This document shows, piece by piece, positions 42,997 to 48,267 of a stretch of DNA of 64,000 nt. The stretch spans positions 372,001-436,000 of the forward strand of contig NZ_SAUF01000002.1 of assembly GCF_004023665.1 (NCBI RefSeq), written 5' to 3'. Numbering within the stretch: the first letter of the stretch is position 1; each line of letters opens with the position of its first letter. A program made the position numbers and the translations under genes. The notes under the pieces were generated by a model. The model searched no databases. It was not told the DNA's origin and saw nothing but the letters and a program-made list of their open reading frames with translations. The DNA comes from Afifella aestuarii. GTDB taxonomy: Bacteria > Pseudomonadota > Alphaproteobacteria > Rhizobiales > Afifellaceae.

Positions 42997-44955
<1,959 letters not shown>

Positions 44956-44986
44956 GAGCGTTCGAAAGTTCGGAAATTGGCGAACG

Positions 44987-45655
44987 TCAGAAGACGCGGC
45001 GCAATTCGGCGTTCGCCTTTATCATGTACATCAACGTCTCGCCTTCGGTGCGTACCGCGCGCAGATCGGCCGTTGCCAGTTTGACTGTCTTGAAGCGGGC
45101 GTACTGCACCTTGGTGGCCGACAGCGCGGTCGCATAGGCAAGCTCGAACAGGCTCTTGCCCTTGTTGGGGCCGCTGTCGACGACCTTGCTTCCTTCCGTC
45201 GAACTCGGGCTGTCCTTGTTGAGCTGGCTGTGGCTCGGTGCATTCGGTCCGCACAGTTTCGGCGAGCCGAGCGCCCATGTGCCGCTGACGATATCTGCGG
45301 GCAAGGTCGCAAGCGTCTGGTCCCAGACAGGGATCGGCGCGTCGTCCACATGCAGTTCGACCCAGTTCGAATGCGCGTAGAAGTCCTGTGTCGTATGAAG
45401 GAGCGCGCCGAAAGCGGCGAGCGCGGGATCCCCGTACTTGTCGCCGACCGTGTCGATGAGGTTCCATTCATCGGCGATATGCTGGATCCCGCCTGGGAAA
45501 TCGCAATTGTCGAAATGCACGCAGCTTTGGGTCTGCAGCAGGTCTTGCGCCATATTGGCGAGAACCACGTAGCCGAGCTGTTGCTGATCGAGGACGCCGT
45601 CATTGGCCTCTTGGGTCAGTTCTGCATGATAGTTGATATCGAACTTTACGGACAT
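44987..45655 (-). CDS. Het-C/VWA7-like putative zinc hydrolase in RiPP-like operon
   Basis: A 222-residue protein with the signature of the Het-C/VWA7 N-terminal region, related in pattern to zinc-dependent phospholipase C/S1-P1 folds. Candidate metal ligands are His10 (NYHAELT), His59 and Asp62 (IQHIADEW), His87, Asp91, His95 and Glu100 (LLHTTQDFYAHSNWVEL). A second conserved block SHSQLNKDSP (141-150) and the helix FELAYATALSATKVQYARF fit the same family. No signal peptide is seen, so it should be cytoplasmic unless exported otherwise. It starts 35 bases after the radical SAM gene and ends the operon. It could process, activate or confer immunity to the peptide; this is inference. Confidence 0.75.
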   Translation of the reverse strand: MSVKFDINYHAELTQEANDGVLDQQQLGYVVLANMAQDLLQTQSCVHFDNCDFPGGIQHIADEWNLIDTVGDKYGDPALAAFGALLHTTQDFYAHSNWVELHVDDAPIPVWDQTLATLPADIVSGTWALGSPKLCGPNAPSHSQLNKDSPSSTEGSKVVDSGPNKGKSLFELAYATALSATKVQYARFKTVKLATADLRAVRTEGETLMYMIKANAELRRVF

Positions 45656-45690
45656 GGGCTTGGCCTTTCCCGGGGGGCCTGGAAGATTGC

Positions 45691-47097
45691 TCAGGAGAAA
45701 AACGGGCCGCCGCAATGCGGATCCTTGGCGTAGTAGCTGCCGGTGGCGTTGAACGAATCCACGAAACACGAGGTGCGGCAGGCATAGAGCTTGGAGCAGC
45801 GCGCGCATTCCGGATCGATCAGAGCGGGTGCCACCGTGCGCTCACGCAGCGCTGCGAACGCGTCCCCGTTCCAGATCGCTTTCAGTCCGGCCTCGAAGAC
45901 GTTGCCGTAGGTGAAGTCCTTCACGCCATGCATCTTGTCGCAGACGGAGACATCGCCGGTCGGAAAGATCGACATGCCCATATTGATACCGCCACAGGGA
46001 TACCAGTCGTCTTCACTCCATTTGCGGCTGGTGTCTTTGGGGGGATGAACGCGGCATAGAGCGGCATAATCGTCGCGCTTCTTCGCCACCTTCTGGCGCA
46101 CCTGCGCGAGCTCTTCGTCCGTGACGTTCGTCTCTGAATTGGCGCCGGAATGGATGGCGCCGGTCTCCATGTAGGAGATGCCGATCTCCGCAACGCCGAG
46201 CGTGACGAGAAGGTCGATCATCGTCTCGACGCCGTGTTGTGTCCTGGGTGTGAGCACGCTCTTCACGACGACCTTGATGCCGGCGTCGGTCAGATAGTGG
46301 ATGGCGTTGAGCACGCGCTGGAATTGACCGCGGGAGCGCGTCACCGCGTCGTGAAGCTCTGCCGTGGGCGCGTCGAAGGAAATCGTGATCTCCTCCATCC
46401 CCGCTTTGGCGAGACGTTGCGCGATCCTCTGATCCGAGCCGATCACCGTGCCGTTGCTGGTGATCGTCGGAATCATGCCGCGGCTGAGGCCGCGCTCGAT
46501 GACCTCCAGCCAGCCCTTGAAGAGCGTGGGTTCGCCGCCCGTGAGGCCCAGGAACACGACACCCCAATCCGCCGCCTCGTCGACCACCTCCAGACACTTC
46601 GTCAGGTCCCAGCGCGGGTCTCCCTTTTGCTGGAGGTCCTGGTAGCAATAGGTGCAGTCAAAATTGCATTTGAAGGTCAGCGTGATGTTGATGCCTGCGG
46701 GCACCGGCCATTGCCCATGCATGGCGCTCGCGATGACCGCGTCGTTTCCGGGATAGAGAAAGCTCTTCGGTTCGAAGCGCGGTTTGACGTGCAGATCAGG
46801 CCCCGGCTCTCTGACCGGCACATGATCTTCCGTCAGGAACATCCGGTTCTGCTCGATGAGCCGGAGCACCTGCGATCGCGCGTTCGCCGGAGAAAGCCCG
46901 AAGGTCTCTCCATACAGAAAGGCGATCTCGGTGGACGTCATCTGGCCGTGGCAGAGCGACAGAAAAAACGCGTGTGAGGGATGGATCATCCGGATGAGCG
47001 AAGGATGATAGCCATGTGCCAGCGCGTAGCCTTGCATCGGCTTCAGCCGCACATTGTCCTTCAGGACAGGAACGGAGTGCTTCGCTTCAACGCCCAT
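45691..47097 (-). CDS. Radical SAM/SPASM peptide maturase
   Basis: A 468-residue enzyme likely to modify the peptide encoded just upstream. Residues ~10-95 look like a PqqD-type winged-helix recognition domain (VLKDNVRLKPMQGYALAHGY onward). The radical SAM cluster is Cys144, 148, 151 in KCNFDCTYCYQ, followed by LTGGEPTLF. The C-terminal SPASM domain has all seven cysteines in canonical spacing: Cys368-x12-Gly-x4-Cys386, then Cys431-x2-Cys434-x5-Cys440-x3-Cys444, and Cys462. GGGAGGAGG precedes the ATG. Such enzymes form thioether or C-C crosslinks in sactipeptides, ranthipeptides and relatives. No transporter gene accompanies it. Confidence 0.93.
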   Translation of the reverse strand: MGVEAKHSVPVLKDNVRLKPMQGYALAHGYHPSLIRMIHPSHAFFLSLCHGQMTSTEIAFLYGETFGLSPANARSQVLRLIEQNRMFLTEDHVPVREPGPDLHVKPRFEPKSFLYPGNDAVIASAMHGQWPVPAGINITLTFKCNFDCTYCYQDLQQKGDPRWDLTKCLEVVDEAADWGVVFLGLTGGEPTLFKGWLEVIERGLSRGMIPTITSNGTVIGSDQRIAQRLAKAGMEEITISFDAPTAELHDAVTRSRGQFQRVLNAIHYLTDAGIKVVVKSVLTPRTQHGVETMIDLLVTLGVAEIGISYMETGAIHSGANSETNVTDEELAQVRQKVAKKRDDYAALCRVHPPKDTSRKWSEDDWYPCGGINMGMSIFPTGDVSVCDKMHGVKDFTYGNVFEAGLKAIWNGDAFAALRERTVAPALIDPECARCSKLYACRTSCFVDSFNATGSYYAKDPHCGGPFFS

Positions 47098-47165
47098 TGT
47101 GGCCTCCTCCCGGCGTGCGAATTGGGCCCGTCTTCGCCGCACGGAAGGCGGCGTGGCGGAGAAGA

Positions 47166-47192
47166 TCCGGCGTCCGGGGAACGGACGCCGGA
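47166..47192 (-). terminator. Hairpin between peptide gene and radical SAM gene
   Basis: An 11-bp perfect stem (TCCGGCGTCCG with its complement) around GGGAA, starting 10 bases after the peptide stop. It has only a weak T-tract (ATCTTCTCC) on the minus strand. Partial termination here would give many peptide transcripts per maturase transcript, as commonly needed in peptide clusters. Confidence 0.6.
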
Positions 47193-47201
47193 CGCTTCAT
47201 G

Positions 47202-47387
47202 TCAAAGCGGTTGCACCTGAATGCAGGTGGAAAGGACGTTCCAGCAGCCGGGATCGCAGCCGACGGCTTCCTTTCCAGTCTCCAGGTTCTTGGCGCGGGC
47301 CTCCGCCCGGTCCGCTTCCTCGCGCAACTGCTTGGCGAGGCCACGCAAATAGTCAGGCTGATGCAGATGTCCGGCTTCAGTTGCCAT
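47202..47387 (-). CDS. Putative RiPP precursor peptide with Cys-rich C-terminus
   Basis: A 61-residue peptide. Residues 1-43 are a charged, helix-forming leader (ending NLETGKEAVG); residues 44-61, CDPGCWNVLSTCIQVQPL, hold all three cysteines (44, 48, 55) with Trp, Asn, Ser and Thr as possible modification sites. The Ala/Glu/Arg-rich helix YLRGLAKQLREEADRAEARA may be the recognition element. GGAGGAAG lies in front of the ATG. It is the first gene of a three-gene operon with a radical SAM/SPASM enzyme, the usual layout of such clusters. I do not know this peptide family. No double-Gly motif precedes the core; Val-Gly before Cys44 is a possible cleavage point. Confidence 0.75.
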   Translation of the reverse strand: MATEAGHLHQPDYLRGLAKQLREEADRAEARAKNLETGKEAVGCDPGCWNVLSTCIQVQPL

Positions 47388-47429
47388 AATGACTTCCTCC
47401 TCGTGTGCGTGACGCAACGCGAGAATAAC

Positions 47430-47560
47430 GTTCTAAATCAGAAGCAGAGTCAAGTAGAAATACTCAATAGTAAATATCTTAAAAAAATAGAGCTGCGCGC
47501 TAATTCGAAATTAACGTACAATAATTCAATATTTACATTTTTATACAAAGCGAGCGCAGG
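47430..47560 (-). promoter_or_regulatory. AT-rich promoter region of the RiPP-like operon
   Basis: About 130 bases of very low GC (long runs such as TTAAAAAAATAG and ATTCAATATTTACATTTTTA) in an otherwise GC-rich window. It lies directly upstream of the peptide gene and holds several TTGAAT/TATAAA-like elements on the minus strand, so no single promoter can be picked by eye. Such islands attract MucR/Ros- or H-NS-like silencers and often mark acquired genes. Confidence 0.55.
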
Positions 47561-47673
47561 GGGCGGAGATGTTGAGCGGCGCCGGTTTCAGTCGCGTGGA
47601 TGTGTGGCCGCTAATTGGACAGCGGGGTCAGGAGAACAGTTTGCCGGCAGGCGCTCGTGCGAGGCCTTGCGCG

Positions 47674-48267
47674 CTAAAGGGCCGGCGTGAAGATGCTTGC
47701 CGTGATCACGAGGGCGACGGCGGCGAGGCCTGTGGCGGCGATCATCAGGGCACCGTCGCAGACGAGGAGCGCGAGCCCGATGAGCGCGATGGCGCCCATC
47801 GGCGCGCTGCTCGCAAACGGGATGAGTTCCAGGGGCGGCACGGTCAGCGTCATCACGATGCAGATGAAGGCCGCGACCCGCACGAAGGGGCCGCTGGCGT
47901 AGCGGGTGAGCCGGCCGTGGAACAAGCGGTCGAGGCGGCGCGCGAAGGCGCGCATGGATTGTGTCGCCTCGCCCAGTTTCCTGGCGGAGACGCTTTGGCG
48001 CGAGACGAATTCCGGGATCCAGAAATGGTCGCGGCCGAACAGCATCTGGCCTGCGAAGAGCGCAACGATGGCGGCGAGGAAGGTGGGGACGCCCGGTATC
48101 CCGCCGATCGGCGAAAGCTCGATCAAGGCGGGGACCAGGAGGAAGGGGCCGTAGCTGCGGTGGCCGAACGTGTCCATCATCTGTCCAATGGAGACACGCT
48201 CGTGCTGGCGTGCCGTTTCGGCGAGGCGATCGACGACCTCGGTGGTGTTGCGGGGACTGGATTCCAT
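47674..48267 (-). CDS. exoD: ExoD family exopolysaccharide synthesis protein
   Basis: A 197-residue membrane protein of the ExoD family, linked in rhizobia to exopolysaccharide and alkali tolerance; molecular role unclear. The start MESSPRNTTEVVDRLAETA is followed by VSIGQMMDTFGHRSYGPFLLVPAL and IGGIPGVPTFLAAIVALFAGQML, the diagnostic block, then FVRVAAFICIVMTLTVPPLELIPF and further helices, about four to five membrane segments. The ATG at 48267 is preferred over a long Arg-rich upstream extension. It lies beyond the AT-rich region, same strand as the RiPP-like operon but not part of it. Confidence 0.9.
   Translation of the reverse strand: MESSPRNTTEVVDRLAETARQHERVSIGQMMDTFGHRSYGPFLLVPALIELSPIGGIPGVPTFLAAIVALFAGQMLFGRDHFWIPEFVSRQSVSARKLGEATQSMRAFARRLDRLFHGRLTRYASGPFVRVAAFICIVMTLTVPPLELIPFASSAPMGAIALIGLALLVCDGALMIAATGLAAVALVITASIFTPAL

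Follow-up and report, generated by a model that had tools for sequence, protein, structure and literature searches.

A putative precursor peptide and radical SAM/SPASM maturase common to Afifella and rhizobia, with a Het-C-like neighbor in Afifella

Closest described systems and layout of the locus

In sactipeptide and ranthipeptide systems (StsB, AlbA, SkfB, PapB, SCIFF), a small precursor with C-terminal cysteines is encoded upstream of an enzyme that combines an RRE-like N-terminus, a CX3CX2C motif and a seven-Cys SPASM domain. The PqqE/PqqD and mycofactocin systems bring together a PqqD-type recognition domain and a PqqE-like radical SAM/SPASM enzyme. All of these traits recur at a locus of Afifella aestuarii within the 64,000-nt stretch of DNA analyzed here (contig NZ_SAUF01000002.1, positions 372,001 to 436,000; hereafter "the window"). 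Reading along the minus strand, a gene for a Cys-tailed peptide is followed by the gene for a radical SAM/SPASM protein and by a third gene, whose product resembles the VWA7_N/Het-C families (Table 1). The locus differs from the sactipeptide and ranthipeptide systems in that its maturase falls well short of the cut-off of every model listed, no exporter is seen and the crosslinks are putative. The resemblance to the PqqE/PqqD and mycofactocin systems extends to a conserved window-type core, pointing to one product; unlike in those systems, the PqqD-like domain is fused to the enzyme and the block shared between loci includes no further biosynthesis gene.

A preliminary description of the window had reported three same-strand genes with short gaps, and its coordinates and open reading frames proved correct, the gaps measuring 104 bases (peptide to maturase) and 35 bases (maturase to Het-C-like gene). 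Its remark that no exporter is adjacent agrees with the open reading frames of the window as judged by eye. In Afifella pfennigii, an ABC-transporter-like permease (so named by eye) lies upstream of the locus; the flanking genes are ones that we take, by eye, to be acetoacetyl-CoA synthetase-like, ABC-transporter and ExoD genes. A search of positions 44500-48000 with Rfam gave no match. The AT-rich tract at 47400-47560, upstream of the peptide gene, is perhaps a promoter region, and A. marina looks alike by eye.

Overall, the data are best explained if peptide and maturase form an undescribed radical SAM RiPP family, of which the Het-C-like protein is a genus-specific neighbor or optional accessory. 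We give this explanation a probability of roughly 0.65. Searched at the level of listings, the open-access literature names no such precursor/maturase family. The leader of the peptide (about 43 residues) would bind the PqqD-like N-terminal domain of the maturase, whose radical SAM center and SPASM clusters would then install crosslinks in the C-terminal 18 or so residues, most likely at the core cysteines. The Het-C-like protein would probably be co-transcribed with the pair in most Afifella. Being small and tractable and having natural core variants, the precursor/maturase pair is suited to co-expression.

Table 1. Features of the locus spanning positions 47387 to 44987 of the window.
Feature	Position	Start codon	Stop codon	Strand	Basis
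Precursor peptide, 61 aa	47202..47387	ATG 47387	47202	minus	ORF, homologues, purifying selection
Stem-loop directly 3' of the peptide stop codon	47134..47204			minus	Predicted fold compared with shuffles
Radical SAM/SPASM maturase, 468 aa	45691..47097	ATG 47097	45691	minus	Pfam, alignment
VWA7_N/Het-C-like protein, 222 aa	44987..45655	ATG 45655	44987	minus	Pfam, alignment

Precursor peptide and maturase

As first described, the cysteines of the peptide are confined to its C-terminus (positions 44, 48 and 55 of 61). Placing the border from the alignment, the leader would comprise residues 1 to about 43 and the core residues 44 to 61, approximately (CDPGCWNVLSTCIQVQPL). Three Afifella genomes encode an identical protein. 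At the DNA level, the window and A. marina genes do not differ at all, and the third gene departs from them at 5 codons, each time by a synonymous change. Comparison with A. pfennigii gives dN/dS values of 0.10-0.12. Synonymous-only changes, low dN/dS and the related peptides encoded ahead of the rhizobial maturases all make this look like a real gene and not a chance reading frame. One could still argue that the genes are chance neighbors and the peptide frame untranslated, as the Mesorhizobium records list no gene there (their gene table is incomplete); with purifying selection acting at the codon level, and with same-leader relatives lying upstream of rhizobial maturases, we consider this scarcely credible.

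Twelve leader residues (G6, H9, L17, Q20, L21, R22, E24, A25, E29, R31, A32 and E40) are invariant in all rows of an 11-row alignment in which the A. marina row is identical to that of the window. The core falls into three types. Type 1, C..GCWN.LSTCI..Q.(L/I), is found in Afifella, Mesorhizobium, Sinorhizobium and the genomes G740 and G876. Type 2, RRPDWPGCWN...NCTEH, has two cysteines and occurs in Rhizobium spp. CB3171 and CB3090 and in genome G819, while type 3, SKQPCCSPILCASVGG, occurs in R. etli and lacks the GCWN motif. Altogether, GCWN is present in 10 of the 11 aligned peptides and only one Cys is invariant. With R. etli and the CB3171/CB3090/G819 group departing from the type 1 core, a Cys chemistry common to the whole family would be a supposition.

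Within type 1, the core is generally better preserved than the leader. Afifella and Mesorhizobium peptides are identical at 16 of 18 core positions and at 23 of 41 leader positions, and the core is the more conserved part in 8 of the 10 pairs that can be formed from the five type-1 peptides (divergent cores were left out of this comparison). The exceptions are a tie between Sinorhizobium and G740 (core 0.61, leader 0.60) and a reversal between Mesorhizobium and Sinorhizobium (core 0.72, leader 0.74). Such conservation fits a constrained product, while the existence of three core types speaks against one single product for the whole family. For the window-type peptide, a single defined product (a cofactor, metal ligand or signal) is more probable than a fast-evolving toxin. 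The peptide family is fitted by no NCBIfam model. The best match has an E value of 0.078; it is a weak match to methanobactin, given by two of the 11 peptides, which we regard as due to chance.

In Pfam, the maturase matches Radical_SAM with 87.4 bits and SPASM with 40.2 bits, each above its cut-off. Its CX3CX2C motif (C144/C148/C151) is conserved in 9 of 9 aligned homologues, and so are the seven SPASM cysteines (C368, C386, C431, C434, C440, C444 and C462); this bears out the original assignment of a radical SAM motif and a complete SPASM domain. Among NCBIfam models, 88 match at E ≤ 1, and none of the 25 matches listed reaches its cut-off. The highest score among those listed is for StsB (NF045574; 108.5 bits, cut-off 625), which leaves the maturase outside the sactipeptide class as this model defines it; PqqE (TIGR02109) gives 107.7 bits (cut-off 381.35) and the mycofactocin maturase model 95.3 bits, again far below cut-off. 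These last two are among the better matches and, together with the finding of a single invariant Cys alongside the widespread GCWN, they lend some weight to the idea of a chemistry other than Cys thioethers, such as epimerization, C-C links at Trp or Asn, or use of the peptide as the source of a small cofactor (as for PQQ and mycofactocin). Since StsB scores highest, if also far below cut-off, this case is indistinguishable here from that of sactipeptide-type maturases, and we view a different chemistry as possible, though doubtful.

The preliminary description had also recognized a PqqD-like N-terminus. The Pfam PqqD model failed to support this assignment, with no match to the maturase N-terminus among matches up to E 10; the likeness did emerge at the profile-profile level. 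When a profile of 11 maturase N-termini was compared by hhalign with one of 28 PqqD domains (of 39 matches listed), a domain at about residues 34-85 was aligned with a probability of 88.7 and a score of 34.9. In control runs, the best of 30 column shuffles scored 16.9 and two unrelated alignments scored 12.5 and 11.8. An AlphaFold model of the maturase built on a three-row alignment (mean pLDDT 39.6) was too poor for use.

The segment that follows the peptide stop codon in the window is predicted to fold into a stem-loop with an MFE of -39.8 kcal/mol (z -5.14; none of 200 shuffles as good). Of 11 loci, eight outperform their shuffles over the corresponding 64-71 bases, with z values from -2.68 to -6.44; among the eight are three near-identical Afifella sequences. 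The M. loti stem-loop is weak (z -1.45), and none is seen within the first 71 bases in CB3171 and G819 (2 of the 11 loci), whose peptide-maturase gaps are longer and give a stable fold as a whole (computed without shuffle control). Stem sequences differ from lineage to lineage. The structure might act as an attenuator or as a 3'-end stabilizer. By analogy, a stem-loop in this position would place the level of the peptide above that of the enzyme.

Distribution outside the genus

Searching plasmid records with the maturase at E ≤ 1e-5 yielded 442 matches, 11 of which extend over 80% or more of the query. Six of the 11 are 58-64% identical and come from Mesorhizobium loti, M. huakuii, Rhizobium etli IE4803, Rhizobium spp. 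CB3171 and CB3090 and Sinorhizobium fredii SMH12; the other five are about 25% identical or less. In a sample of the order, 7 of 397 genomes contain a match at E ≤ 1e-30, five strong (four Afifella and G740) and two weak. Within the family of G740, 3 of 394 genomes (G740, G819 and G876) contain a match at E ≤ 1e-60, with 61-66% identity to the window maturase. A peptide with the same leader lies upstream of the maturase in all nine rhizobial loci (six plasmids and three genomes), two of the three rhizobial core types differing from that of the window (two Cys; no GCWN). The small Cys-tailed peptide that had been expected beside maturase homologues is thus present, and a precursor with its own radical SAM/SPASM maturase recurs in independent genomes (9/9 rhizobial loci, 4/5 Afifella). 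Used alone as the query, the peptide recovers 3 of the 6 plasmids.

When Afifella and rhizobial loci were compared at the protein level, peptide and maturase made up the one shared block. Other shared pieces were short and scattered, the longer ones occurring only between some rhizobia. Since no further block is common to all loci compared, genes for an exporter, for immunity or for a protease are not seen as shared components. This weighs against the proposal of a narrow-spectrum, bacteriocin-like RiPP as the product of the pair, with core diversity among rhizobia reflecting strain competition, as does the window-type core, whose conservation between genera exceeds that of the leader in 8 of 10 pairs. 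The proposal would account for the three core types among rhizobia and for the patchy occurrence in G740's family, yet we hold it to be unlikely.

NodA is found in four of the six pair-bearing plasmids and in all three rhizobial genomes, and in none of the five Afifella. The background is 233 of 72,556 plasmids, but a fair background would be rhizobial plasmids, so that 7 of 9 records is a lead and not an enrichment. The two Mesorhizobium plasmids are without NodA, though both strains were isolated from root nodules. Through its location on plasmids with nodA, the pair lends itself to tests of a role in nodule bacteria. A further reading, which we consider unlikely, is that a conserved and crosslinked peptide common to Afifella and nodulating rhizobia, with its gene in the latter on nodA-bearing symbiosis plasmids, serves as a peptide-derived cofactor or signal in the symbiotic lifestyle, Afifella having additionally recruited a Het-C-type protein. 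Upstream of the pair in the two Mesorhizobium loci (L061/L062, 1-6086) are genes annotated as tyrosinase and as FAD- or NAD(P)-binding oxidoreductase; in M. huakuii they also include one annotated as a LodA/GoxA-type oxidase. Scans of viral contigs and phage records, the viral ones beginning from short conserved patterns, returned no Het-C-like protein; the radical SAM proteins that they did return are all distant.

The Het-C-like protein in Afifella

The third protein had been assigned to the Het-C/VWA7 type. The VWA7 part of this assignment stood, with Pfam VWA7_N (PF25107) matching at 43.4 bits (cut-off 27.5) and recognizing all five Afifella copies (best E 2.3e-12), whereas the Het-C model PF07217 remained below its cut-off (16.6 bits against 21). 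PF07217 presumably represents the other, Neurospora-type HET-C protein. Podospora HET-C is a glycolipid transfer protein (PMC10197012). The HTTQDFYAHSNW and HSxLNKD blocks of the window protein recur in modified form in two distant Pseudomonadota proteins: an alignment of these two with the five Afifella proteins has the blocks H..QD.Y.HSN and H..LNKD in common, and the N-terminal YH...T and HxDN are common with one of the two. The shared blocks resemble metal-binding motifs, and H10, H47, D49, H87, D91, H95 and H142 are candidate metal ligands. In contrast to the VWA7_N and Het-C families, the window protein is only 222 residues long, with no evident signal peptide (by eye) and no VWA domain found. 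The zinc hydrolase of the preliminary description is at most a putative assignment. As a probe for an S1-P1/phospholipase C-type zinc hydrolase fold, comparison with three S1-P1 nucleases by hhalign gave a score of 14.2, shuffles (n = 30) reaching up to 17.5; no sequence relative was found in the PDB up to E 10, and a structure model from a three-row alignment (mean pLDDT 35.8) was too poor for use.

Some match to the maturase exists in 60 of 61 genomes representing the window's own genome, genus, family and order, but full-length proteins with at least 67% identity are found in four, all of them Afifella (G000-G003), the other matches listed being at most 37% identical. Identity to the window maturase is 97% in A. 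marina and 66% in A. pfennigii. The peptide scores high in the same four genomes (21 searched). The Het-C-like protein is present in five of the 61 genomes, that is, in the five Afifella. All three genes occur together in four of the five, in the same order and on the same strand, with the peptide upstream of the maturase in every case and 12-43 bases between the maturase and Het-C-like genes.

The pair may be of recent horizontal origin in Afifella. Between the window and A. pfennigii, the maturase is 66% identical, compared with 78% for the Het-C-like protein and 80% for the acetoacetyl-CoA synthetase-like gene in the flank. Against such an origin, the operon does not stand out from its flanks in base composition, and a branch of the unrooted tree separates the four Afifella maturases from the rest (support 100/99; 100% of 200 bootstrap trees).

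In G004, the fifth Afifella genome, the flanks of the locus correspond to those of A. pfennigii and the Het-C-like gene sits at the same place. No maturase is found at the locus, nor any above 25% identity elsewhere among the matches listed. The Het-C-like frame is intact, its product being 69% identical with every candidate ligand kept. Just before it lies a 32-residue leader-like peptide fragment (E 5.2e-4), part of an open reading frame (L036, 5510-5686) whose stop overlaps the start codon of the Het-C-like gene by four bases, possibly a remnant or a reused short gene. These features suggest that the pair was probably lost in G004 and the Het-C-like gene stayed.

Outside Afifella, no Het-C-like gene accompanies the pair in any of the nine rhizobial loci, a search that covered six whole plasmids and 9-14 kb around the three genome loci, the chromosomes of the plasmid strains being left out. 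Neither the 72,556 plasmid records nor the 50,697 phage records contain a match to the protein; at E ≤ 1e-5 it is found in one of 385 genomes of a class sample, the window's own, and at E ≤ 1e-3 in three of 299 genomes of a phylum sample (the window's own, plus two distant matches that lie within longer reading frames). The Pfam model search gave matches in 2 of 180 genomes. Co-occurrence with the pair beyond the window's genome, which the preliminary description had anticipated, holds within one genus only in the records searched. We reject a general three-gene class with Het-C as defining partner, because the rhizobial pairs searched showed no Het-C-like gene and G004 has kept the gene without the pair. 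Evolution can separate the Het-C gene from the pair, which corrects the eye-catching three-gene idea. Elsewhere the pair can probably do without the Het-C-like protein and, to judge from the G004 sequence, that protein without the pair in this one relative.

A separate matter is whether the three genes make up a true system in Afifella, with the Het-C-like protein, perhaps a metal-dependent hydrolase, processing, activating or detoxifying the modified peptide, or being controlled by it. Conservation of operon order with short gaps in four Afifella favors a link there. The best evidence for such a link is the dN/dS of the Het-C-like gene, which is 0.10-0.15 among the four genomes with the pair, a sign of purifying selection, and 0.24-0.29 between G004 and three others; the higher values could mean that constraint was relaxed after loss of the pair, and the G004 gene is perhaps under weaker constraint. 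Set against this are the intact G004 protein, retained without a close maturase and with the peptide reduced to a fragment, and the lack of any such gene beside the rhizobial pairs or, at E ≤ 1e-5, in the other genomes of the class sample. A three-gene system in Afifella appears improbable, in an assessment that already allows for the raised dN/dS in G004, and we favor the reading of the Het-C-like protein as a genus-specific neighbor or optional accessory.

Other sets of peptide and radical SAM genes were noticed as well. On the Rhizobium sp. CB3171 plasmid (L064, 1999-5206, minus strand), a second, RiPP-like set adjoins the pair. It combines a Cys-tailed peptide of 77 aa (...CDSCTVCPCMICW) with two radical SAM genes, of which one resembles TIGR04463 (242.2 bits, cut-off 525). 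Another Afifella peptide, of about 104 residues, Gly/Ser-rich and with repeated Cys motifs, lies upstream of a different radical SAM protein in G004 (L037, 6476-8408) and in A. pfennigii (G002; L038, 6449-8230). Between these two genomes the peptides are 78% identical and the radical SAM proteins 74%.
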